Assembly: GCF_020217185.1 (NCBI RefSeq)
Contig: NZ_JAIWNX010000315.1
Coordinates: 1 to 10,000, forward strand
From: Asticcacaulis sp.
GTDB lineage: Bacteria; Pseudomonadota; Alphaproteobacteria; Caulobacterales; Caulobacteraceae
Direction: 5' to 3'
DNA: 10,000 nt
This document shows positions 1 through 10,000 of the stretch, in pieces; positions within the stretch are counted from its first letter, which is position 1, and each line of letters opens with the position of its first letter. The notes under the pieces are model-generated. The model ran no database searches. It had not been told where the DNA came from and saw only the letters and a program-made list of their open reading frames with translations. The translations under genes and the position numbers were made by a program.

Positions 1-176
1 CAGAGCTGAACGCCGTGTTGAGCGACACCGGAGAACCCATCCACCTTTTTGAACGCACCCGCCTGTGGGACGCCGTGGCCTGGCCCGCCGCCGCCAGAGG
101 CTTTTTTGCCTTCCGCCCGGTGATTGCGCACCTTATGGCGCTGACGGACCCCGGCGGGTTTCAGGGCAGACCCTGA
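1..176 (+). CDS. C-terminal end of an unidentified protein (5' partial)
   Basis: Frame 3 is open from the window edge to a TGA at 174-176, giving the last 57 residues of a protein that begins outside the window. The other two forward frames hit stops within the first 55 bases, so this is the only frame that can be coding here. The tail is rich in hydrophobic and aromatic residues (HLFERTRLW, then AARGFFAFRPVIAHLMAL) and ends in a short GGFQGRP segment. I do not recognise the family. The next gene starts only 14 bases after this stop and has its own Shine-Dalgarno, so the two are probably co-transcribed. High GC at third positions supports real coding. The function is unknown. Confidence 0.6.
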   Translation, partial: ELNAVLSDTGEPIHLFERTRLWDAVAWPAAARGFFAFRPVIAHLMALTDPGGFQGRP

Positions 177-190
177 GAGGGAGAGCAGGT

Positions 191-646
191 ATGGACGCGA
201 CTCTGTCGAAACTGGACGCCCGCTGGGTGATGGCGCTTACCCTTGCCGGAGGCCTGCCGTTCATAACGGCGGTCCTCATGGCCGCCCTTGGCGTACGCCT
301 TCTCACCCTGAGCGGACCGGATATCGCCATCACCTATGGGGCAGTGATTGCGTCCTTTCTCTGCGGGCTGCACTGGGGCCTTGTGCTGGGGGGACGGGCT
401 CAGGCGACGTGGCTTCTGATCCTGAGTAACGTCCTTTGCCTTTTGGCATGGGCAGGTGCGCTGCTGGCCCTGTCCGGGTGGCCAAAGGCCGCCTTAACCC
501 TCCAGACTGCCGTCTTCCTAAGTTTGCTGGCGGTCGATCATGTCCTGATGCGCCGGGGTTGGCTGTCGGCGGCTTTCTTCCGGCTGCGCGTGGTCATTAC
601 CTGTGTGGTCGTTGCGTGTTTAATTGGGGTCGCCGCCCTCACCTGA
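191..646 (+). CDS. DUF3429 family small integral membrane protein
   Basis: This is a 151-residue protein with about five hydrophobic helices (roughly residues 13-38, 46-67, 73-94, 99-119 and 133-150), so it is an inner-membrane protein. The segment YGAVIASFLCGLHWG (49-63), the acidic-His turn VDHVLM (115-120) and the C-terminal FRLRVVIT (130-137) match my memory of the DUF3429 family, whose members are about this long and whose function is unknown. I chose the ATG at 191 because GGGAGAG lies 6-12 bases upstream and because the frame only extends further upstream by overlapping the preceding gene. It follows that gene by 14 bases, suggesting an operon. Its stop is 3 bases from the stop of the convergent PdxJ-like gene, and I see no intrinsic terminator between them. 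The family call is fairly sure and the role unknown. Confidence 0.75.
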   Translation: MDATLSKLDARWVMALTLAGGLPFITAVLMAALGVRLLTLSGPDIAITYGAVIASFLCGLHWGLVLGGRAQATWLLILSNVLCLLAWAGALLALSGWPKAALTLQTAVFLSLLAVDHVLMRRGWLSAAFFRLRVVITCVVVACLIGVAALT

Positions 647-649
647 GCC

Positions 650-1702
650 TCAGCCCGCGCGCCGTAAGGGGGTGCCGGAGCGGCCCGGGGCCTGAGTCTG
701 ACGCAGATATTTGATGAGCATAATCCCCGCAAAACTGGCGGGCAGGTTCGCCGCGAACACCAGCGCCTCAAGACGCACCAACGGCCCGGCCAGCAGACGT
801 TCTGCCGCATAAAGCTGAGGGTCTTCAAGGCGAGGCAGGGCCTCACGACAAAACCGCTCCAGCCCCTCTTTTAGCCGAATGTCCCCCATACCAGCGACAC
901 GCTCAGTAAGGCGTCTGTGTCTCTCGGCCGGGGTATCTTCTCCTCTGCCTGCCCCGGACATGCGTTCGCGCAAGGTTTTGACAGCCACAGACAGCCCCTC
1001 ATTCAGAGCCTCTGGCATCAGCCGCCGTCCGATATTGAACTGCCGGAAACTGCCCGATCGCGCCAGCACCCTAAGGTCAGCAGGCCGCAGCCCGCCCCCC
1101 AGATGCACCTCAACACCGTGACGATTGAGATAGCGCCCCAGACTGAGCACGTGCGATAAGGCATCAAAGGCCCGGTCGATATCGGGACTGCGCAGGCTGG
1201 CCGCCAGATGCGACATATCCAGCTCCACGGTAAACAAGCCGTAGCGCAGGGCCTGCTCCGCAGCCTCAAGCGTCGGCTCCAGCGTGACAAACAGCGCACA
1301 GTCGCTGTCCTTCAGCGTCTTCTGGACCTTCTGGATATGGCCTATATGGGATTTGAGGAAGAGGCTGGTGCTCGTCCATTGCGCGACCTTCGCTTCACGC
1401 CCCAAATAGATACGGTCGGCCTTAAGGCGACGCGCGCGCTCCACGTGATCGAACGCCGTCGTCACCCGCAAGCAGAAGTCTCTCTGCCGTTCGCCACAAA
1501 CGTCCGCCACGCGCGCCAGATCGTCATCCGAGATCAGGCCATGATCAGAAGTCAGGTGTATCATCACCCCTTCGGCCCCGCCTTCGATCACGCGGTCCGC
1601 CAGGTGCGACAGGTCAACGGTTTCGCCGATGCCGAGCCCCGGCAGAAGCGCCGCACTTTCAAGACTAACGGCCAGTCGGGGGCCAGTCTTAGATCCCAAC
1701 AT
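650..1702 (-). CDS. Divergent PdxJ-like (pyridoxine 5'-phosphate synthase fold) protein with C-terminal extension
   Basis: This is a 350-residue protein. Residues about 9-248 align along their whole length with PdxJ, the TIM-barrel enzyme that condenses 3-amino-2-oxopropyl phosphate and deoxyxylulose 5-phosphate to pyridoxine 5'-phosphate. Landmarks are GAEGVMIHLTSDHGLISDDDL (split as 42-51 and 52-62), VTLEPTLEAAEQAL (139-152), VELDMS (159-164), HLGGGL (200-205) and FNIGRRLM (222-229). Key sites are changed: the N-terminal NxDH motif reads SLES (13-16), the catalytic Glu of strand 3 is Arg79, and the GHG motif carrying the third catalytic residue is GGG. Only the His equivalent to E. coli His45 (His49) and the Glu of the EIH motif (Glu160) remain. 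Normal PdxJ is about 240-250 residues; here a charged, helical tail of about 100 residues (249-350) follows. I chose the ATG at 1702 because GGAGG lies 5 bases upstream; an upstream in-frame start at 1732 lacks this. It is probably not a working pyridoxine phosphate synthase, and its actual role is unknown. Confidence 0.72.
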   Translation of the reverse strand: MLGSKTGPRLAVSLESAALLPGLGIGETVDLSHLADRVIEGGAEGVMIHLTSDHGLISDDDLARVADVCGERQRDFCLRVTTAFDHVERARRLKADRIYLGREAKVAQWTSTSLFLKSHIGHIQKVQKTLKDSDCALFVTLEPTLEAAEQALRYGLFTVELDMSHLAASLRSPDIDRAFDALSHVLSLGRYLNRHGVEVHLGGGLRPADLRVLARSGSFRQFNIGRRLMPEALNEGLSVAVKTLRERMSGAGRGEDTPAERHRRLTERVAGMGDIRLKEGLERFCREALPRLEDPQLYAAERLLAGPLVRLEALVFAANLPASFAGIMLIKYLRQTQAPGRSGTPLRRAG

Positions 1703-1724
1703 CAAAACCTCCGTACACCACGCA

Positions 1725-1829
1725 CTACGCACCCCCGTTGCGATTCAACTGGTTTACGTCTGGGTGCAGGGGTCCGATGACGGCCAAAATGTCGCAGGGC
1801 ACGGAGGCCTTCTTGCGCGCCTTGCGCAT
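1725..1829 (-). CDS. Possible 34-residue small ORF upstream of the PdxJ-like gene
   Basis: The frame runs from an ATG at 1829 to a TAG at 1725-1727 and would encode a basic N-terminus (MRKARKKAS) followed by a hydrophobic/proline stretch (CDILAVIGPLHPDV). An AGGTGG sequence (1836-1841 on the minus strand) sits 6 bases before the ATG. Most third codon positions are G or C, as in the neighbouring genes. The stop lies 22 bases before the ATG of the PdxJ-like gene, so it would be a leader-like gene in the same transcript. Against it: it is very short, I recognise no family, the AGGTGG is part of a repeated element, and the opposite strand shows equal third-position bias in a 22-codon frame (1777-1845). 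I list it as tentative. Confidence 0.25.
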   Translation of the reverse strand: MRKARKKASVPCDILAVIGPLHPDVNQLNRNGGA

Positions 1830-1835
1830 CCATCA

Positions 1836-1905
1836 CCACCTGTGAAACGTAGACCACCTGAAACCGGTGCCCGTTGATGTCCGCAAAACCACCCCACCTG
1901 AGACC
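1836..1905. repeat. Three imperfect direct repeats of CCACCTG(A/T)(A/G) type
   Basis: CCACCTGTGAAACG starts at 1836, CCACCTGAAACC at 1854 and CCACCTGAGACC at 1894. The first two are 18 bases apart and the last two 40 bases apart, all on the same strand. They lie in the divergent region between the PdxJ-like gene and the ABC1 kinase gene, the last one inside the extreme 5' end of the kinase frame if the ATG at 1877 is used. Repeated sites of this kind in a divergent promoter region can be transcription-factor sites, but no protein is known to bind here and chance similarity in GC-rich DNA is possible. Confidence 0.35.
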
Positions 1906-3199
1906 CTCTGCCATGCCGGCCGGGCCTGCCTCGCGCCTGTTCGCGCTGGGGGGTCTGGCGGCGTCCGGCCTTGGCCACGTGGTCAAAGAAAGCGCCAGAC
2001 AAATGTCGCGCGGACAAAAGCCCGACCTCGCCAGCCTGTTGTTTGATGAAACCAACGGCCTGCGCATGGCCGATCAGCTGGCGCGGATGCGCGGCGCGGC
2101 CATGAAGGTGGGACAGATTCTGTCGATGGACAGCGGCGACATCCTGCCGCCCGCCTTCACTCAGGCGCTCAGCCGTCTGCAACAGGAGGCCCACATCATG
2201 CCGCGCGACCAACTGGAGCGCGTCTTGCGCGGCGCGTGGGGCGATGACTGGCGACAACATTTCGTGCGTTTTGACCTGACACCCTTTGCGGCGGCCTCGA
2301 TTGGTCAGGTGCACCGCGCGCAACTGAAAAGCGGCGAGGTTCTGGCCATCAAGGTGCAGTTCCCGAACGTAACGAAAACCATAGATTCCGACGTCGCCAA
2401 TATTGCCGGGCTCCTGAAACTGCTGGGCGTGGCGCAGAAGGTGAAGGACCTGCCGGACCTGATCGAGACGGCGCGCGTACAGTTGCACGAAGAGGCGGAT
2501 TACCTGCGTGAAGCCGCGCACATGGCACGCTATGCCGACGCCCTGTCCGACGACCAGACCTTTGTGGTGCCGCGTACTCATGCGCCGCTTCTGCGTCCCA
2601 ACATCCTGCCGATGGATTTCGTCGAGGGCGAGCCGGTCGAGACGCTCACACACGCCCCCACCGCCACACGCAATCAGGTGATGGAGACGCTGTTTGGTCT
2701 GGTGCTGCGCGAGCTGTTTGACCTCAGGCTGATGCAGACCGACCCCAACTTCGCCAATTTCAAATGGCGGCCGCAAACGGGACAGGTGGTGCTTCTTGAT
2801 TTCGGTGCCACGCGCACTGTCCCTGAGACTACTGTCGAGGCCTATCGCACCCTGATGCAGGCGGGCCTCAACGAAGACCGCGAGGGGCTGATCGTCGGCT
2901 TAAGCGAGATCGGGGCGGTCAATGAGGCCGTCCTGACCGCCCACCGCGCGCGCCTGAACGCCATGCTCGACATCATGATCCAGCACCTGCGGCGGCCGCT
3001 GCTCGATCTGGCGGATCGCCATTTCGTACCCCTGATCCGTGAAAAGGCGCACGAAATTGCTATGGATCAGACGACCTGGCAAAGCCCGCCGGCGGATACC
3101 CTGTTCGTGCAGCGCAAGCTCAGCGGCATGGCGCTTCTGGGGGTGCGCATGCGTGCGACTATCCCTCTGAGAGCTATGGTCGCGCAGGCTATAGCCTGA
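1877..3199 (+). CDS. ABC1/COQ8-UbiB family atypical kinase-like protein
   Basis: This is a 440-residue member of the ABC1 (UbiB/COQ8/ADCK) family, atypical kinases or ATPases that support ubiquinone biosynthesis at the inner membrane. All family hallmarks are visible: the KVGQ signature (77-80), the alanine-rich AAAS loop replacing the glycine loop (138-141), the ATP-site lysine in AIKVQFP (Lys159), HEEADYLRE (204-212), the catalytic loop QTDPNFANF (287-295, Asp289 and Asn294) and DFG (308-310). The QTDP-type catalytic loop is closer to eukaryotic COQ8 and its alphaproteobacterial relatives than to E. coli UbiB, and the C-terminal membrane helices of E. coli UbiB are absent. The start is uncertain: neither the ATG at 1877 nor the ATG at 1913 has a strong Shine-Dalgarno. 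I prefer 1877 because it keeps a proline-rich N-terminus common in relatives. It is transcribed divergently from the PdxJ-like gene and followed by a hairpin terminator. Confidence 0.88.
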   Translation: MSAKPPHLRPSAMPAGPASRLFALGGLAASGLGHVVKESARQMSRGQKPDLASLLFDETNGLRMADQLARMRGAAMKVGQILSMDSGDILPPAFTQALSRLQQEAHIMPRDQLERVLRGAWGDDWRQHFVRFDLTPFAAASIGQVHRAQLKSGEVLAIKVQFPNVTKTIDSDVANIAGLLKLLGVAQKVKDLPDLIETARVQLHEEADYLREAAHMARYADALSDDQTFVVPRTHAPLLRPNILPMDFVEGEPVETLTHAPTATRNQVMETLFGLVLRELFDLRLMQTDPNFANFKWRPQTGQVVLLDFGATRTVPETTVEAYRTLMQAGLNEDREGLIVGLSEIGAVNEAVLTAHRARLNAMLDIMIQHLRRPLLDLADRHFVPLIREKAHEIAMDQTTWQSPPADTLFVQRKLSGMALLGVRMRATIPLRAMVAQAIA

Positions 3200-3369: not shown

Positions 3370-5784
3370 ATGCTCGCCTTCCATCTGCGTTCGCTGCGCG
3401 CCACCGCCTCCTTGTGGCCGCTCCTGCCCACCGCGCTCCTGCTGGCTCCGGCGGTTGCGGCACACGCACAGACTCAGCCTGTTGCCCAAGAGACGCAGGA
3501 AGTCATCGTCACCGGCACCCGTGAAAAGGGTCGCACCAAATACGAGAGCCTGACCCCCGTCGATGTCATCTCGGCGAAGGCGGTTCAGGACGGCGCGTCG
3601 GCGGAACTGGCCGACAATCTGGCGCAGGTCATCCCGTCGCTTCAGGTACTGAAACTGCCGTCGTCGGACGGTCTGCAATTCATCCGCCCGGCGCGTCTGC
3701 GCGGCCTGTCGTCGGATCAGACGCTCGTTCTGGTCAATGGCAAGCGCTTCCACCGTTCGGCCTTTCTGGGCCAGCGCGGGGCGCAGGGGGCCGATCTGAA
3801 CAAGATTTCGTCCTTGAGCGTCGGTCGCGTCGAAGTGCTGCGCGACGGGGCCTCGGCCCAGTACGGTTCGGACGCCATCGCCGGGGTCATCAATATCCAG
3901 TTGGATGAGCGTCCGGGCGTCAACGCCTATGTGCAAGGCTCGCAATATTACGAAGGCGACGGCGAAACCGTGCGCGCCGGTCTGAAGGCCGGAACGCGCT
4001 TCGATCAGGGCTTTTTGACCGCCTCGGTCGAATGGGCCGACGCCAAAATGACCTCGCGCAGCCATCAGCGTCAGGACGCGCTCGACTATATGAAGGCCAA
4101 TCCGGGCGTCGTTCTGCCCGACCCCGTGCAGCACTGGGGTGCGCCGGACAGCAAGAGCTATAATCTGGCGCTCAACGGCGCGTTCAATCTGGGCTTTGCC
4201 GAAGCCTATGGCTTCGCCACGGCGGCCAAGGGCGAAGGCATCAACGATATCAACTGGCGCATCCCCTCGGCCACGTCGAACGCCAGCGTCTATAAGACCG
4301 TAGCCAGCTTCCCCGGCTGGGATCTGAAATCGGTCTATCCGCTGGGCTTCACGCCGCGCGAACAGGCCAAGTATCAGGACTATCAGGCCGTGGGTGGCGT
4401 GCGCCACACCGGCGACGTCTTCAGCTGGGACCTGTCGGCCTCGGTCGGTGAAAACGAGACCAAATTCTACCTCTATAACTCGATCAACGCTTCGCTGGGC
4501 CCGTCTTCACCGTTCGACTTCTTCCTCGGCACCCAGACCCAGCGCGAAGTCACCGTCAATGCCGATGGCGTCTATCGCCTCGATCTGGGCCTGAGCGAGC
4601 CGGTCAATATCGCCTTTGGGGCCGAACACCGCAAGGAAACCTATAAGGTCGGTGCCGGTGACAAGGCCTCCTACGCTGTCGGTGCCGGCGCCAAGGACGG
4701 ACTCGCCGTCGGCTCCAACGGCTTCCCCGGCTTCTCCGACCTGCAGGCCGGTGAGTGGTCGCAGGACAGCGACGCCGCCTATGTCGATGTCGAAGCCAGG
4801 CTGACGCCGGAATGGACGCTGGGCGGTGCGGTGCGCTACGAAGACTTTGACAGCTTCGGCAGCACCACCAATGGAAAGGTCTCGACCCGTTACGAGTTCA
4901 CGCCCTTCTTCGCGGCGCGCGGCTCGTGGTCCACCGGCTTCCGCGCACCAACGCCGGGTCAGATCAATTCGGTTTCCGTCTCACAGGGTCTGGATACGGT
5001 GACGCTGCAAGTGTTCACCAATGGCCGCCTGTCGCCGCTGAACCCGATCGCCGTCAGCAAGGGTGCCAAGCCCCTGCAACCGGAAGAGTCGACCAACAAG
5101 AGCGCCGGTTTTGTCTGGCGCACCGATTTCGGCCTGTCGGGCTCATTCGACATGTATCAGATTGAGGTCGATAACCGTCTGGGACAGTCGTCCTCGATCA
5201 CCTTGACGACGGCCGAAAAGAACGCTCTGGTCGCTCAGGGCTATCCGGCGGCGGCCAGCTTCACCTCGGTCTATTGGTACACCAACGACTACAATACCCG
5301 CACCAAGGGTATCGACGTGGTGACCACCTATGTGCGCCCGCTGTGGAATGGCCGTCTGAACCTGACGTTCGCCTATAACAACAACAAGACCTTGATCACC
5401 GGCGGGACGCTCAACGCCAACCCGACCACCAAGCGCGTCTTCGAAGAAGGCCTGCCGCAGAACAACGCCACCTTCACCGGCACCTTCCGCAAAGGGGCGT
5501 TTGAGTATCAGGTGCGTGCGCGTCACTACGGCGGCTGGACCGACTCGACCGGCAATTCCACCGGCGACATCTTCCAACGCTTCGGCGCGATGAACTTCGT
5601 CGATGCCTCGGTACTGTGGGACATGACCGACAAGCTGTCACTGAAGGTTTCCGCGGAAAACCTGTTCGACCAGTATCCGGAAAAGGCCGTCTTCCAGGCG
5701 TCGCGCGGCATCGAATATTCGCGTAACGCGCCTTACGATACCTATGGCGGTCAGTACTATGTGCGCCTGAACGCCAAATTTTGA
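3370..5784 (+). CDS. TonB-dependent outer-membrane receptor
   Basis: This is an 804-residue outer-membrane active transporter that imports a ligand using energy from TonB-ExbB-ExbD. A Sec signal peptide spans residues 1-33 (Arg at 7 and 10, hydrophobic core, cleavage after AHA). A TonB-box-like EVIVTGTR follows at 44-51. The plug domain runs to about residue 177 and contains the conserved RVEVLRDGASAQYGSDAIAG segment (about 153-172) and VINI. The rest is a 22-strand-type beta-barrel with alternating aromatic residues, ending in YYVRLNAKF, whose terminal Phe is the usual BAM signal. The length is normal and the frame intact. The ligand cannot be read from the sequence. The following gene encodes an exported PvdN-like PLP enzyme, which suggests a siderophore or other amino-containing ligand. 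A strong terminator follows 20 bases after the stop. Confidence 0.93.
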   Translation: MLAFHLRSLRATASLWPLLPTALLLAPAVAAHAQTQPVAQETQEVIVTGTREKGRTKYESLTPVDVISAKAVQDGASAELADNLAQVIPSLQVLKLPSSDGLQFIRPARLRGLSSDQTLVLVNGKRFHRSAFLGQRGAQGADLNKISSLSVGRVEVLRDGASAQYGSDAIAGVINIQLDERPGVNAYVQGSQYYEGDGETVRAGLKAGTRFDQGFLTASVEWADAKMTSRSHQRQDALDYMKANPGVVLPDPVQHWGAPDSKSYNLALNGAFNLGFAEAYGFATAAKGEGINDINWRIPSATSNASVYKTVASFPGWDLKSVYPLGFTPREQAKYQDYQAVGGVRHTGDVFSWDLSASVGENETKFYLYNSINASLGPSSPFDFFLGTQTQREVTVNADGVYRLDLGLSEPVNIAFGAEHRKETYKVGAGDKASYAVGAGAKDGLAVGSNGFPGFSDLQAGEWSQDSDAAYVDVEARLTPEWTLGGAVRYEDFDSFGSTTNGKVSTRYEFTPFFAARGSWSTGFRAPTPGQINSVSVSQGLDTVTLQVFTNGRLSPLNPIAVSKGAKPLQPEESTNKSAGFVWRTDFGLSGSFDMYQIEVDNRLGQSSSITLTTAEKNALVAQGYPAAASFTSVYWYTNDYNTRTKGIDVVTTYVRPLWNGRLNLTFAYNNNKTLITGGTLNANPTTKRVFEEGLPQNNATFTGTFRKGAFEYQVRARHYGGWTDSTGNSTGDIFQRFGAMNFVDASVLWDMTDKLSLKVSAENLFDQYPEKAVFQASRGIEYSRNAPYDTYGGQYYVRLNAKF

Positions 5785-5854: not shown

Positions 5855-7114
5855 ATGCATCGCCGCCACCTTCTGAGCGCCGTCGGAGCGCTGCTGCCCG
5901 CCGTCGCTGCCGCGCAATCAGCACCCCCTGCGCTGACACCACCCTTGGGGCCGCAGGACGAGGCGGGCTGGGCGCGCGTGGCTGAGGCCTTTCCGGCACG
6001 ACCGCAGGGGTTGATCAATCTGGAATACGGGGCCTTTGGTCAGATGCCGCGCGCTGTCGAAGCGGCCTTTGCCCGCTATACGGCGCAGGTTAATCAGGAG
6101 GGCGCGGCCTTCACGCGGCGGGGCTTTGTCCCCTACTATCTGAAACTGCGTCAGACGATAGCCACGGCCCTGAACGCCGATGCGTCCGAAATCGCTCTGA
6201 CGCGCAACGCCACCGAGGCGCTTCAGGCCCTGATCAGCGGTTACAACCGCCTGAAGCCCGGTGATGCGGTTTTGATGGCCGACCACGATTACGACAGCAT
6301 GCAGACGGCCATGCAGTGGCTGAAAACGCGGCGCGGGGTCGAGGTGGTGCGCTTGGCCCTTCCGCATCCGGCCACGTATCAAAACCTGATCGACGCTTAC
6401 GAACAGGCTTTGAAGGCCCACCCGGCGATCCGAATGATGCTGCTCACCCCTGTCGGTCACCGCAGCGGTCTGCGCCTGCCCGTGCGCGAGATCATCGCCA
6501 TGGCGAAAGCGCGCGACGTCGATGCCATAGTCGATAGCGCCCATGCCTGGGGGCAAAGCCCGGTCGATGTACGCGCCGAAGGCTTTGAATTTGCAGGCTT
6601 CAACCTGCACAAATGGATCGGCGCACCCGTCGGCGTCGGTGCCCTGTTTATCCGCAAGGACCGGGTGGAGGCCATCGACCCCTATATGGGCGAAAGCGTC
6701 AATCCGCGCGATCCGGTTTCCGCCCGTGTTCATACGGGCACGGCCAATTTCGCCGCGCAAATGGCGGCCATAGACGCACTGGAACTGCACACAAAACTAG
6801 GCTCCGCAGCGGTCGAAGCCCGTCTGCGTTATCTGCGCGACCTGTGGGCTGAACCGGCGCGCGATCTGAAGACGATCGACATTCTGACGCCTGTCGATCC
6901 GCGCCTGCATATCGGCATCACCTCCCTGCGCCTTAAGGCCGATCCGTCGCCCGAAGCACACGCGGCACTGGCCAAACGCCTTCTGGACGCGCACGGCCTG
7001 TTCACCGTGACGCGGACAGGACTTGACGGCGGGGCCTGCCTGCGCGTCACGCCGGGCTATAGCTCGACCCCAGCCGATATGGTGCGGTTGCTGGGGGCAC
7101 TGAGATCCGTGTGA
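5855..7114 (+). CDS. Exported class-V PLP-dependent enzyme, PvdN-like / isopenicillin-N-epimerase-like
   Basis: This is a 419-residue fold-type I PLP enzyme of aminotransferase class V. The N-terminus MHRRHLLSAVGALLPAVAAAQS has a twin-arginine pair (3-4), a hydrophobic core and an AAA-Q cleavage site near residue 20, so export by Tat as a folded holoenzyme is likely, although the motif is short and Sec is not excluded. PLP-site residues are visible: NATEAL (118-123) for phosphate, Asp227 in DSAHAWGQ (227-234) for the pyridine nitrogen and Lys253 in FNLHKWIG (249-256) as the Schiff-base lysine. An exported member of this class is well known: PvdN of fluorescent Pseudomonas, a Tat substrate that modifies the glutamate side chain of periplasmic pyoverdine precursor. 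Other relatives are cytosolic epimerases and desulfurases. The position right after a TonB-dependent receptor supports action on an imported or secreted ligand. The start ATG at 5855 has a weak GGGAA ribosome site just after the upstream terminator. The substrate is unknown. Confidence 0.85.
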   Translation: MHRRHLLSAVGALLPAVAAAQSAPPALTPPLGPQDEAGWARVAEAFPARPQGLINLEYGAFGQMPRAVEAAFARYTAQVNQEGAAFTRRGFVPYYLKLRQTIATALNADASEIALTRNATEALQALISGYNRLKPGDAVLMADHDYDSMQTAMQWLKTRRGVEVVRLALPHPATYQNLIDAYEQALKAHPAIRMMLLTPVGHRSGLRLPVREIIAMAKARDVDAIVDSAHAWGQSPVDVRAEGFEFAGFNLHKWIGAPVGVGALFIRKDRVEAIDPYMGESVNPRDPVSARVHTGTANFAAQMAAIDALELHTKLGSAAVEARLRYLRDLWAEPARDLKTIDILTPVDPRLHIGITSLRLKADPSPEAHAALAKRLLDAHGLFTVTRTGLDGGACLRVTPGYSSTPADMVRLLGALRSV

Positions 7115-7618: not shown

Positions 7619-8836
7619 TTACGCTTGGGGTTGAGCATAGACCCGCGACAGATGCAAAACACCGACCGCCGCCAGATAGACCGTACCGGCGACAAAGAAT
7701 ATCAGGCTGTAGGAGCCGGTATATTCCAGCACCACGCCTGAAAACAGCGCCATCAGCATAGCCCCCACTGCCCCCGCCGCCCCGCCAAGGCCGACGACGC
7801 TGCCGACCACCTCCGGCGGGAAGAGGTCCGACGGCACGGCCAGCAGATTGGCCGAAAAGGCCTGATGAGCCGCTGCCGCTACGGCTACGATCATGACAGA
7901 CAGCCACAGCCACGGACTGAGCGGCACAGCGACCAGAGGCAGGATAACCAGCGCGCAGGCGAGCATCACGCGGCTGCGCGCCGGCCCGACGCTGAGGCCA
8001 CGCGCCATCAGCCGCGCCGAGGCCCAGCCGCCGATGATGCTGCCCAAATCGGCCAGCAGAAAAATCAGCAATAACGGCACGCCAAACTGCCGCAAATCCA
8101 AGCTGTGGGTGCGATAAAGAAAGTCCGGCAGCCAGAACAGATAGAGCCACCACACGGGCACGGTGAGAAACTTCACCACAATATAGACCCAGGCGCGCCG
8201 CGTCCGCAGCACCCGGGCAAGGGTGGACCAACTTGGAGGGATAACAGGCCGCGGTGCATCCGCCGTCTGGGGCCGCTTGTATATTCTGAGCCACAGGATC
8301 AGCCAGAGAAAGCTGACGAGGCCGGTGATCAGAAACGCCCCGCGCCAGCCATAGCTTTCGGTGAGCCACGGTACGAGCGCCAGAGTGAGCAGAGCCCCGG
8401 AGGCCGAACCGGCGTTAAACAGGCCGATGGCCAGCGCGCGCTCCTGCGGGCGGAACCCCTCGGAAATCGCCTTCAGACGCGCCGGAAAGGTGCCGGATTC
8501 ACCCACCCCCAGCAGAAAGCGGATCAGGCCAAACTGCGCGGTTGTGGTGGCCACCCCCAGCAATGTGTGCGCCGCTGCCCACAGGGTAAAGGCCCCGACA
8601 TAGCCCAGCCGCGCGCCGACGCGGTCCATCAGTGGCCCGAAGGTCAGAAACCCCACCACAAAGGCCGCGTGAAAAGCAATCACCACGCCGGAATAGTCGA
8701 TTTCCGACCAGCCCAGTTCGGCCTGCATCATCGGCTTGAGCAGGCCAAACATCTGACGGTCCATATAGGTCAGGCAGGAGGCCACAAAGATAAGGCCCAC
8801 GACCCGCCAGGGTCCGCGCCGCGCGCCCGTTTCCAT
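7619..8836 (-). CDS. MFS transporter, ExuT-like (anion:cation symporter, hexuronate type)
   Basis: This is a 405-residue, 12-helix inner-membrane carrier. The end of helix 1, YMDRQMFGLLKP, then the WSEIDYSGVVIAFHAAFVVG segment, GPLMDRVGARLGY (the MFS loop 2-3 signature) and GVGESGTFPARLKAISEGF followed by QERALAIGLFNAGS are the conserved stretches of the hexuronate/glucarate branch of the anion:cation symporter family, which import sugar acids with protons. I chose the ATG at 8836 because it leaves the usual short cytoplasmic tail of about 15 residues before helix 1. The frame is open far upstream (to 9082), but that part overlaps the esterase gene. The gene lies 77 bases downstream of the esterase gene on the same strand, probably in one operon. 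That spacer holds a 9-bp hairpin covering the GGG of the likely ribosome site. Substrate assignment to hexuronates or other sugar acids is by family only. Confidence 0.87.
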   Translation of the reverse strand: METGARRGPWRVVGLIFVASCLTYMDRQMFGLLKPMMQAELGWSEIDYSGVVIAFHAAFVVGFLTFGPLMDRVGARLGYVGAFTLWAAAHTLLGVATTTAQFGLIRFLLGVGESGTFPARLKAISEGFRPQERALAIGLFNAGSASGALLTLALVPWLTESYGWRGAFLITGLVSFLWLILWLRIYKRPQTADAPRPVIPPSWSTLARVLRTRRAWVYIVVKFLTVPVWWLYLFWLPDFLYRTHSLDLRQFGVPLLLIFLLADLGSIIGGWASARLMARGLSVGPARSRVMLACALVILPLVAVPLSPWLWLSVMIVAVAAAAHQAFSANLLAVPSDLFPPEVVGSVVGLGGAAGAVGAMLMALFSGVVLEYTGSYSLIFFVAGTVYLAAVGVLHLSRVYAQPQA

Positions 8837-8847
8837 CGTTTCACTGT

Positions 8848-8885
8848 CCCGTCTTTTGTTTGCCTGATCATGGGCCAAAGACGGG
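8848..8885 (-). promoter_or_regulatory. Intercistronic hairpin ahead of the MFS gene
   Basis: On the minus strand CCCGTCTTT (8885-8877) and AAAGACGGG (8856-8848) form a perfect 9-bp stem with a 20-base loop that itself contains a GGCC...GGC-type pairing and TGATCA. The 3' arm ends in GACGGG, the best ribosome-site candidate, 11 bases before the MFS ATG. There is no U tract after it, so it does not look like an intrinsic terminator. It may tune translation or stability of the transporter mRNA. Confidence 0.45.
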
Positions 8886-8913
8886 GCCTTGTCACGCACG
8901 GGCACGCCACCGC

Positions 8914-10000
8914 TTATGAGCCGGGCGACAAAGACAGGGTGAAAGGCACGACCGGCAGGCCGCTCTTGCCATAGAGATTGACCGGCGGTGAGCCCTGCCA
9001 GGCGTAGCGCACCTGACGCGCGGACGCATCGGCGGGCAGGCGCACGGTATCGCCCTCGACCTGCGCCGAAACGAAGCGGCACTTGCCCGCGGCGTCACAC
9101 AGCTCAAAGGTCGCCGCCTCGTGCGAGCCGTAGGCGATCAGGCTGCCACCCGTATCGGTAAAGCGCACACGGATACCATCGGCGGTGGCTTCAGCCTTAA
9201 CCGGCGACGGCGCGCGCAACAGCGGACGGCCATAGGCAACGCGCAGCATCTCAGTGCCCAGACGCGCCCCGACCTCGTCCTTATGCGCCGGGTGGATGTC
9301 ATAGGAGACGCCGAGGTCGATCAGTACGGCAAGGCCCATATGCGGGTCCTTCGCGACGGTCAGGCGCTGCGCTTCCCGCAGTTTTGCCCAATCATTATCG
9401 CTCGGCACAGCGCTGCGCGGCCCATAGCCCGGCAGTTGTGCGATGATCACCGGCAGGGCCGGATCGTGGAAAAACGACCGCCACGAGGCCGCCCAGCCGT
9501 CCAGCAGCCCGGCATAGGTCGCCGCCGCGGCTGTATTGGTTTCACCCTGATACCAGGCGATGCCTTTTAGCGCCAAACCGTCGAGCGGGGCGATCATGCC
9601 GTTCCACAACATGCTCACGCCGCGCGGTGCGGCCCACGGCACGAAGGGCGGCGGCGTCTTCCAGTTGCGACGCTCCGCCCCGGTCTGATAGCGCCACGGC
9701 CCGGACAGATCGAGCGCCGGGGCCCCGCTCAGCTCAAGGCGCAGTTCCCCCGCCTTGCCCATCAGGCCCCCTGCCCCGCGCTCATCCACCACGCGGATGG
9801 CGATAAGATTACGCCCCGCCTTGAGAAGCCCAGCCGGCAGGGTGTAGGTGCGCGGTTCACTGCCCAGCAGCGTTGCGCCGACCACCTGACCATTGACCCA
9901 CACCTGATCGCGCTCATCAATGCGCCCCAGCCGCAGGATGGCGGGTTTGGCCGCCTGTTCCGCCGTCAGCTCGACACTATGGCGATACCACATCAGGCCG
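8914..10000 (-). CDS. Sialate O-acetylesterase / CE20-type esterase (5' partial)
   Basis: The frame is open from the window edge, so the N-terminus, including the nucleophile Ser region, is outside. The visible 361 residues (counted below from the Met at 9993) begin with an inserted jelly-roll domain (about 1-95: MWYRHSVEL, RIDERDQVWVNGQVVG, NLIAIRVVDERG), then return to the SGNH-type esterase core with GIAWYQGETN (144-153) and the catalytic Asp-x-His in YDIHPAHKDEVG (231-242; Asp232, His234), and end in a small beta domain. This order is that of bacterial sialate 9-O-acetylesterases and the related acetyl-xylan esterases (CE20). These usually act in the periplasm after a Sec signal, which would lie outside the window. 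With the ExuT-like gene downstream, removal of acetyl groups from plant polysaccharide fragments is more likely than sialic acid use, but this is inference. Confidence 0.88.
   Translation of the reverse strand, partial: GLMWYRHSVELTAEQAAKPAILRLGRIDERDQVWVNGQVVGATLLGSEPRTYTLPAGLLKAGRNLIAIRVVDERGAGGLMGKAGELRLELSGAPALDLSGPWRYQTGAERRNWKTPPPFVPWAAPRGVSMLWNGMIAPLDGLALKGIAWYQGETNTAAAATYAGLLDGWAASWRSFFHDPALPVIIAQLPGYGPRSAVPSDNDWAKLREAQRLTVAKDPHMGLAVLIDLGVSYDIHPAHKDEVGARLGTEMLRVAYGRPLLRAPSPVKAEATADGIRVRFTDTGGSLIAYGSHEAATFELCDAAGKCRFVSAQVEGDTVRLPADASARQVRYAWQGSPPVNLYGKSGLPVVPFTLSLSPGS

Follow-up and report, generated by a model that had tools for sequence, protein, structure and literature searches.

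A PdxJ-type barrel without PdxJ catalytic residues, joined to an SdhE-type domain in Asticcacaulis

Introduction

SdhE, also known as Sdh5 or SDHAF2, is the flavinylation factor of complex II, a helper protein that attaches flavin, while PdxJ, the pyridoxine phosphate synthase, is an octamer. His45, Glu72 and His193 are taken here to be the catalytic residues of the Escherichia coli enzyme, with the NxDH motif likewise assigned a role, and the glycines of the GxG and NxG motifs presumably form part of its phosphate side. SdhE is a small protein, of approximately 90-140 residues according to the available text of one report (PMC5773532). The same text and a second, also available in part, indicate that flavinylation requires the RGxxE motif and that the carbonyl of G16 forms a bond with the FrdA histidine that carries the flavin (PMC5773532, PMC8621075); the Serratia variants G16R and E19A are described as non-functional (PMC8621075). 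A fusion of SdhE within the complex II family is not expected, as far as the accessible portion of PMC5773532 goes, and fusion to an unrelated protein, as described here, is a different case from the one discussed there.

A third point of comparison is offered by dead-paralogue regulators (prozymes and other pseudoenzymes), which resemble the present protein in being catalytically dead copies beside a live enzyme. In the parts of the sources that are available, the known examples act on their own live paralogue, whereas the protein analyzed here unites two altered halves of unrelated pathways in one chain. No description of a PdxJ-SdhE fusion was found in the literature searched (most subscription journals lie outside it), and within the same scope no joint paper was found for SdhE and PdxJ, for Asticcacaulis and SdhE, for ABC1 kinases and SdhE, or for DUF3429 and photolyase.

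The fusion gene and its surroundings

The window, a stretch of 10,000 nucleotides from an Asticcacaulis genome (G000 below), carries the fusion gene and its neighbors as follows.

650..1702, minus strand: PdxJ-SdhE fusion gene, 350 residues; the same two-part orthologues occur in 7/25 Asticcacaulis genomes, the window's own counted
953..1678, minus strand: PdxJ-fold barrel, residues 9-250, active site lost (Pfam, AF2, Foldseek, site table)
1466..1468, minus strand: codon of Arg79 at the position of catalytic Glu72 (Glu in 61/61 canonical PdxJ, Arg in 8/8 fusions)
689..931, minus strand: SdhE/Sdh5/SDHAF2-like domain, residues ~258-338
875..889, minus strand: degenerate RGxxE position, reading MGDIR, residues 272-276 (alignment of 20 stand-alone SdhE and seven tails)
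1703..1873, no strand: intergenic region between the divergent fusion and ABC1 genes, alignable among G000, G005, G010 and G019
1874..3199, plus strand: ABC1-family (UbiB/COQ8-like) kinase, the second ABC1 of the genome (PF03109, 193 bits)
191..646, plus strand: DUF3429 protein, adjoining the fusion in 6/7 carriers (PF11911, 89.2 bits)
3..176, plus strand: 3' end of a photolyase-like FAD_binding_7 protein, homologue of L036:7315-8487; the remainder lies at the end of contig G000:C124

The length of 350 residues is counted from an ATG common to the orthologues; an alternative GTG start at 1732 would give a product longer by 10 residues. A promoter scan of the intergenic region found no sigma-70-like promoter. 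The protein consists of a barrel of the PdxJ type, devoid of PdxJ catalytic residues, followed by the SdhE domain, and we regard this two-domain identity as very nearly certain.

The PdxJ-type barrel and its lost active site

The Pfam PdxJ family (PF03740) matches residues 9-247 with 79.8 bits (E 2.2e-22, cut-off 24.5), the AF2 model of the barrel has a mean pLDDT of 90, and the first 16 Foldseek matches to this model are all PdxJ chains, among them 6rg0_A with a target-normalized TM-score of 0.91, all of which confirms the proposal of an initial annotation, made from the letters of the window, that the barrel aligns with PdxJ from end to end. The window protein nevertheless lies more than 100 bits under all six cut-offs of the NCBIfam PdxJ equivalogs, the best score being 68.9 bits against a cut-off of 331 (TIGR00559, 40 against 192.75).

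Comparison with 61 canonical PdxJ sequences (24 from Asticcacaulis, 17 from relatives, that of E. coli and 19 from a protein collection) reveals how thoroughly the active site has been altered. In E. coli numbering, N9/I10/D11/H12 have become S13/L14/E15/S16, R17, R20 and R47 have become P21, G24 and T51, E72 and T102 have become R79 and W109, H155/T156/G157 have become D162/M163/S164, and H193 and H216 have become G203 and R226. N9, D11, H12, E72 and H193, all replaced here, are each invariant in 61/61 canonical sequences. The changes noted initially (NxDH to SLES, the strand-3 Glu to Arg79, GHG to GGG, TG to MS) are thus correct for the window protein, as is the statement that His45 alone survives of the three catalytic residues, with the refinement that E153 is kept as well and that His193 is still found in G006. 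The alignment reveals no reappearance of the catalytic residues elsewhere in the barrel.

The orthologues share most of these losses. Unlike PdxJ (PF03740; structures 1m5w and 6rg0), all seven have Asn9, Asp11, His12, Arg17, Arg47, Glu72 and His216 replaced, six have also lost His193, and they carry an additional C-terminal domain; like PdxJ, they keep His45 (as H49) and Glu153 (as E160), in 7/7 copies, and the GxG and NxG glycines. Near-invariant PdxJ columns are retained at 21/63 positions in the window protein and at 27/63 in that of G006, the least changed orthologue. Across a set of eight fusions, which includes five close relatives, 16 of these 63 columns are unchanged in all and 41 are variable, while six sites that are invariant in canonical PdxJ are fixed to a new residue in 8/8 (N9S, R17P, R47T, E72R, H155D and H216R). 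The positions of H193 and T103 vary between orthologues. A conserved stretch found only in the fusions, S187..R190-Y191..R194-H195 followed by G (S187..RY..RHG), is invariant in the eight.

An SdhE-type tail

The initial annotation had also described a charged helical extension of 100 residues; the tail (residues ~252-350) is real, but within it lies an SdhE-like domain rather than a mere extension, as indicated by Pfam matches of relatives, a profile chain and the predicted fold. Tails of distant orthologues match Pfam Sdh5 (PF03937) with 49.5 bits (G009), 49.3 bits (G006) and 34.7 bits (P0008), the cut-off being 27. The window protein has no Sdh5 match at E 0.1 in the Pfam search, the G005, G010 and G019 copies and P0004 have none at E 1, and P0006, at 0.071, falls under the cut-off. 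A stand-alone SdhE HMM gave the window tail 4.1 bits, with shuffled tails reaching up to 6.9. Since this direct test failed, the sequence tie of the window tail to SdhE holds through the chain of G009, G006 and P0008 only; profiles linked via these relatives gave 96.8% and 99.1%, whereas no more than 8.2% was reached when columns were shuffled 60 times. The predicted fold of the window tail has SdhE/SDHAF2 structures as its top matches. Judged by chained profiles and predicted fold, the window tail is an SdhE (Sdh5/SDHAF2) domain.

Two features set it apart from known SdhE proteins (PF03937; structures 1x6i, 6b58, 6c12 and 6vax): a PdxJ barrel precedes it in the same chain, and the clade of the window is devoid of RGxxE. 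This motif is intact in two of the seven tails (G009 and G006) and gone in the other five, MGDIR standing in its place in the window. Since RGxxE is needed for flavinylation, the forms of G006 and G009 may act as SdhE, and that of the window probably has no SdhE activity.

In G023, a premature stop interrupts the fusion copy (L035:51-1100, plus strand) at codon 312, close to where the SdhE-like domain ends. Conserved sequence continues past this stop, which is known from one contig of a metagenome-assembled genome, and it fits a lost role of the tail in that genome.

Companion genes, distribution and phylogeny

The genome of the window has a separate canonical pdxJ (G000:C192, 297.8 bits), which agrees with the notion that the fusion is a paralogue, and a stand-alone sdhE (87.4 bits). 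Canonical pdxJ occurs in 24/25 Asticcacaulis genomes, including all seven fusion carriers, and none was found in G003 (87% complete); separate SdhE-type ORFs, sought with the tail of the fusion profile, occur in 25/25. Since these separate genes persist, the fusion gene is an extra and not a replacement.

The fusion was found in 7/25 Asticcacaulis genomes (G000, G005, G006, G009, G010, G019 and G023) and not found in the other 18. Among 390 Caulobacteraceae genomes, the same seven and G029 were recovered (E 1e-38 cut), the G029 match stopping at profile position 255 of 349 and being read as ordinary PdxJ, while among 385 Alphaproteobacteria sampled evenly across the class only the window was recovered, and no other genus (E 1e-41 cut); both searches scored the best five candidates or fewer per genome, so that more diverged fusions could escape these cuts. 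A scan of genome contigs yielded two fusion loci, both from Asticcacaulis. In a protein collection, where approximately 8000 candidates were scored per search, the matches listed (in one search the best 120 of 144) include at least seven fusion-type proteins, P0002-P0008, of which P0005 is incomplete; with the SdhE part of P0007 as query, P0007 alone was recovered among 21 candidates. Four of these at least seven listed proteins carry source names, each being 'pyridoxine 5'-phosphate synthase', and one of the four also has a UniRef name starting 'FAD assembly factor S'. Automatic annotation thus conceals proteins of this kind.

In a tree with the 61 canonical PdxJ, the fusion barrels form a clade of their own (support 100/99), separated from canonical PdxJ by approximately 5 substitutions per site (1.26 + 4.04 on either side of the drawn midpoint root), a branch too long for its point of departure within PdxJ to be placed. 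In the canonical PdxJ tree, the carriers fall into two parts, {G000, G005, G010, G019, G023} and {G006, G009}, and G007 groups with G009 yet is without the fusion; the fewest changes that account for its presence number three (24 Asticcacaulis). The fusion occurs in two separate Asticcacaulis lineages.

Selection on the fusion

Among five close genomes, dN/dS is 0.11-0.18 in the barrel and 0.23-0.41 in the tail, where pairs with G023 comprise 57 codons only; the corresponding values are 0.015-0.063 for canonical pdxJ and 0.03-0.15 for stand-alone sdhE. The reading frame is intact in 6/7 copies, and the most distant ones are approximately 30% identical. Between G009 and G006, identity is 38% for the fusion, compared with 83% for ABC1, 86% for PdxJ, 83% for SdhE and 96% for UbiB. 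The fusion is thus under purifying but relaxed selection, and is retained while evolving several times faster than related genes. Since neither half seems fit for its old job in the strain of the window and selection retains the gene, it probably has a new one. The initial proposal of a PdxJ paralogue recruited to a new role consequently stands in part: the lost active site, the separate clade and the purifying selection bear it out, and the interpretation as a whole is partly supported.

An accompanying ABC1 kinase

The ABC1-family kinase gene is divergent from the fusion in G000, G005, G010, G019 and G009; in G023 the contig of the fusion ends where the divergent kinase would stand, and G006 is the only genome in which kinase and fusion are on different contigs, both well inside them. 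This second ABC1 is present in 7/7 genomes with the fusion and in 0/18 without, another ABC1 gene being present in 25/25 Asticcacaulis genomes. The odds of such a split are 1 in 480,700 if relatedness is ignored; since the well-supported independent pairs number two (three on the best tree; sign test, p 0.5), the co-occurrence is suggestive only. ABC1 genes of this type occur in 38/390 Caulobacteraceae genomes, of which 31 lack the fusion, so that the kinase can do without it. Eleven ABC1 loci from other Caulobacteraceae genera, searched by tblastn (E 1e-5), have no fusion, FAD_binding_7 protein or DUF3429 within the stretches read.

Upstream of the G006 ABC1 gene, which begins at 8702, lie IS66 transposase genes (L119:6223-8245, minus strand), separated from the kinase by a run of N. 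A rearrangement at this element could have split the kinase-fusion pair in that genome.

The photolyase-like FAD protein is present in 6/7 fusion genomes, as is DUF3429, which is also found in G024, a genome without the fusion. These genes and the kinase, rather than the PLP-dependent enzyme at 5855-7114, are the recurring neighbors. The initial annotation had considered a vitamin B6 link to this enzyme, 4 kb away, tempting; it and its TonB receptor are unmatched (E 1e-8) in the flanks read beside the other six copies, with one flank only available in G023, where the contig ends, and the enzyme was rejected as a partner.

Proposed function and alternatives

The fusion most likely acts in flavoprotein or respiratory-chain maintenance, by a mechanism that we infer. 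The reading that we tentatively favor, while holding it to be somewhat less than an even chance, is that of a pseudoenzyme-type adaptor, a modulator that a ligand would tune and that acts on the assembly of flavoproteins or of complex II. Since the GxG and NxG glycines, H49 and E160 are kept and R79 and R226 are newly fixed, the barrel has most likely retained the binding of a small anion, probably a phosphorylated one, and lost the ability to make pyridoxine phosphate. For the SdhE domain, docking on a flavoprotein is most likely: in G006 and G009, with RGxxE intact, the docking partner would be SdhA or a relative, while in the clade of the window the contact could be changed, or the domain could be a decoy that competes with the real SdhE. 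The co-varying ABC1 kinase suggests one shared process, possibly the upkeep of quinone-linked flavoproteins. Against such a modulator, its function is read from fold and context, the tail is under weaker constraint than the free-standing SdhE (dN/dS 0.23-0.41 as opposed to 0.03-0.15), the kinase link comes down to the two independent pairs and faces 31 genomes with the kinase alone, and the G023 copy stops at codon 312. Furthermore, the 25 Asticcacaulis genomes have one full-length SdhA match and one short, weaker match (two short ones in G001), and no extra SdhA was found in carriers, which equal non-carriers in this respect; no dedicated client is therefore visible.

A more specific, and doubtful, proposal is a metabolite-gated switch of flavoprotein maturation, in which the dead barrel would sense a phosphorylated metabolite and the SdhE domain would relay the signal to a flavoprotein, be it complex II or a different one. 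The ABC1/COQ8-type kinase could be a dedicated co-worker, and the clade of the window would have turned the switch into an SdhE decoy. If this were so, the protein would represent a regulated rather than a housekeeping form of SdhE.

An equally doubtful suggestion is that the barrel is a new enzyme, catalyzing another reaction on a phosphorylated substrate via H49, E160, R79, D162 and R226, with SdhE as a tether. The fixed, non-random replacements at six sites, the presence of H49 and E160 in 8/8 fusions and the barrel dN/dS of 0.11-0.18 would suit a catalyst; the survival of only 16/63 invariant columns in the eight fusions, the variability at the H193 and T103 positions and the rapid divergence (38% identity between G009 and G006, against 86% for PdxJ) would not.

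It is unlikely that the dead barrel joins the oligomer of canonical PdxJ in the manner of a prozyme, regulating B6 synthesis or bringing SdhE there, even if the PdxJ fold is kept, canonical pdxJ is present in 7/7 carriers and dead paralogues that activate a partner are known in other families from the available portions of PMC5201418 and PMC3663545. Identity to the resident PdxJ of G000 is 23%, which makes common interfaces doubtful, and the two genes lie on different contigs in 6/7 carriers and approximately 90 kb apart in G006.

It appears similarly unlikely that the gene has been decaying slowly since its duplication and no longer serves any important function. Fast evolution, the G023 stop, the 41/63 variable sites, the loss of RGxxE in five of seven tails and the 18/25 Asticcacaulis genomes in which the fusion was not found would all be expected from decay, yet in the five close genomes barrel and tail alike have dN/dS values well under 1, six of seven frames are intact, and six sites are fixed to new residues despite approximately 30% identity between the most distant copies. 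Lastly, a working pyridoxine phosphate synthase with displaced catalytic residues, to which the Pfam match across the whole barrel might have pointed, is excluded for practical purposes by the alignment, which offers no Glu or His to fill the catalytic positions, and by the six NCBIfam cut-offs missed by more than 100 bits, a full canonical pdxJ being present elsewhere in the genome.

To our knowledge, ABC1/COQ8-family kinases have no known partners in many bacteria. The regulation of SdhE/SDHAF2 genes was, in turn, a subject on which almost nothing was known as of 2016, according to the part of PMC5042078 that is available. A natural protein in which an SdhE domain is tied to a likely ligand-binding barrel, and which follows an ABC1 kinase across genomes, provides a handle on both.

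Other genes near the fusion

The photolyase-like protein is found at L036:7315-8487 and L040:5909-7180 (both plus strand), and window positions 3-176 are the 3' end of the same protein. FAD_binding_7 covers residues 74-195 (L036), the DNA_photolyase domain is not matched, and the ~195 residues that follow FAD_binding_7 are without a Pfam match above cut-off; from its sequence, this could be a photolyase in circularly permuted form or half of one. In G009, a full-length photolyase by Pfam (L040:7177-8730, plus strand) lies near the fusion and this half-photolyase, and L040:4786-5589 (plus strand), also near the fusion, is presumably a thiazole synthase.

In the window, the gene at 5855-7114 (plus strand) encodes a protein of the class V aminotransferase fold and is directly preceded by that of the TonB-dependent receptor (3370-5784). 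Of the NCBIfam models, that of the periplasmic PvdN scores highest against this protein, with 115.9 bits (cut-off 650). An ORF at 8914-9993 (minus strand) encodes a sialate O-acetylesterase domain, and its N-terminal part weakly matches a galactose-binding or GH2-like domain, below cut-off; the ORF adjoins an MFS transporter gene (7619-9082, minus strand), and similar genes are found in L038.
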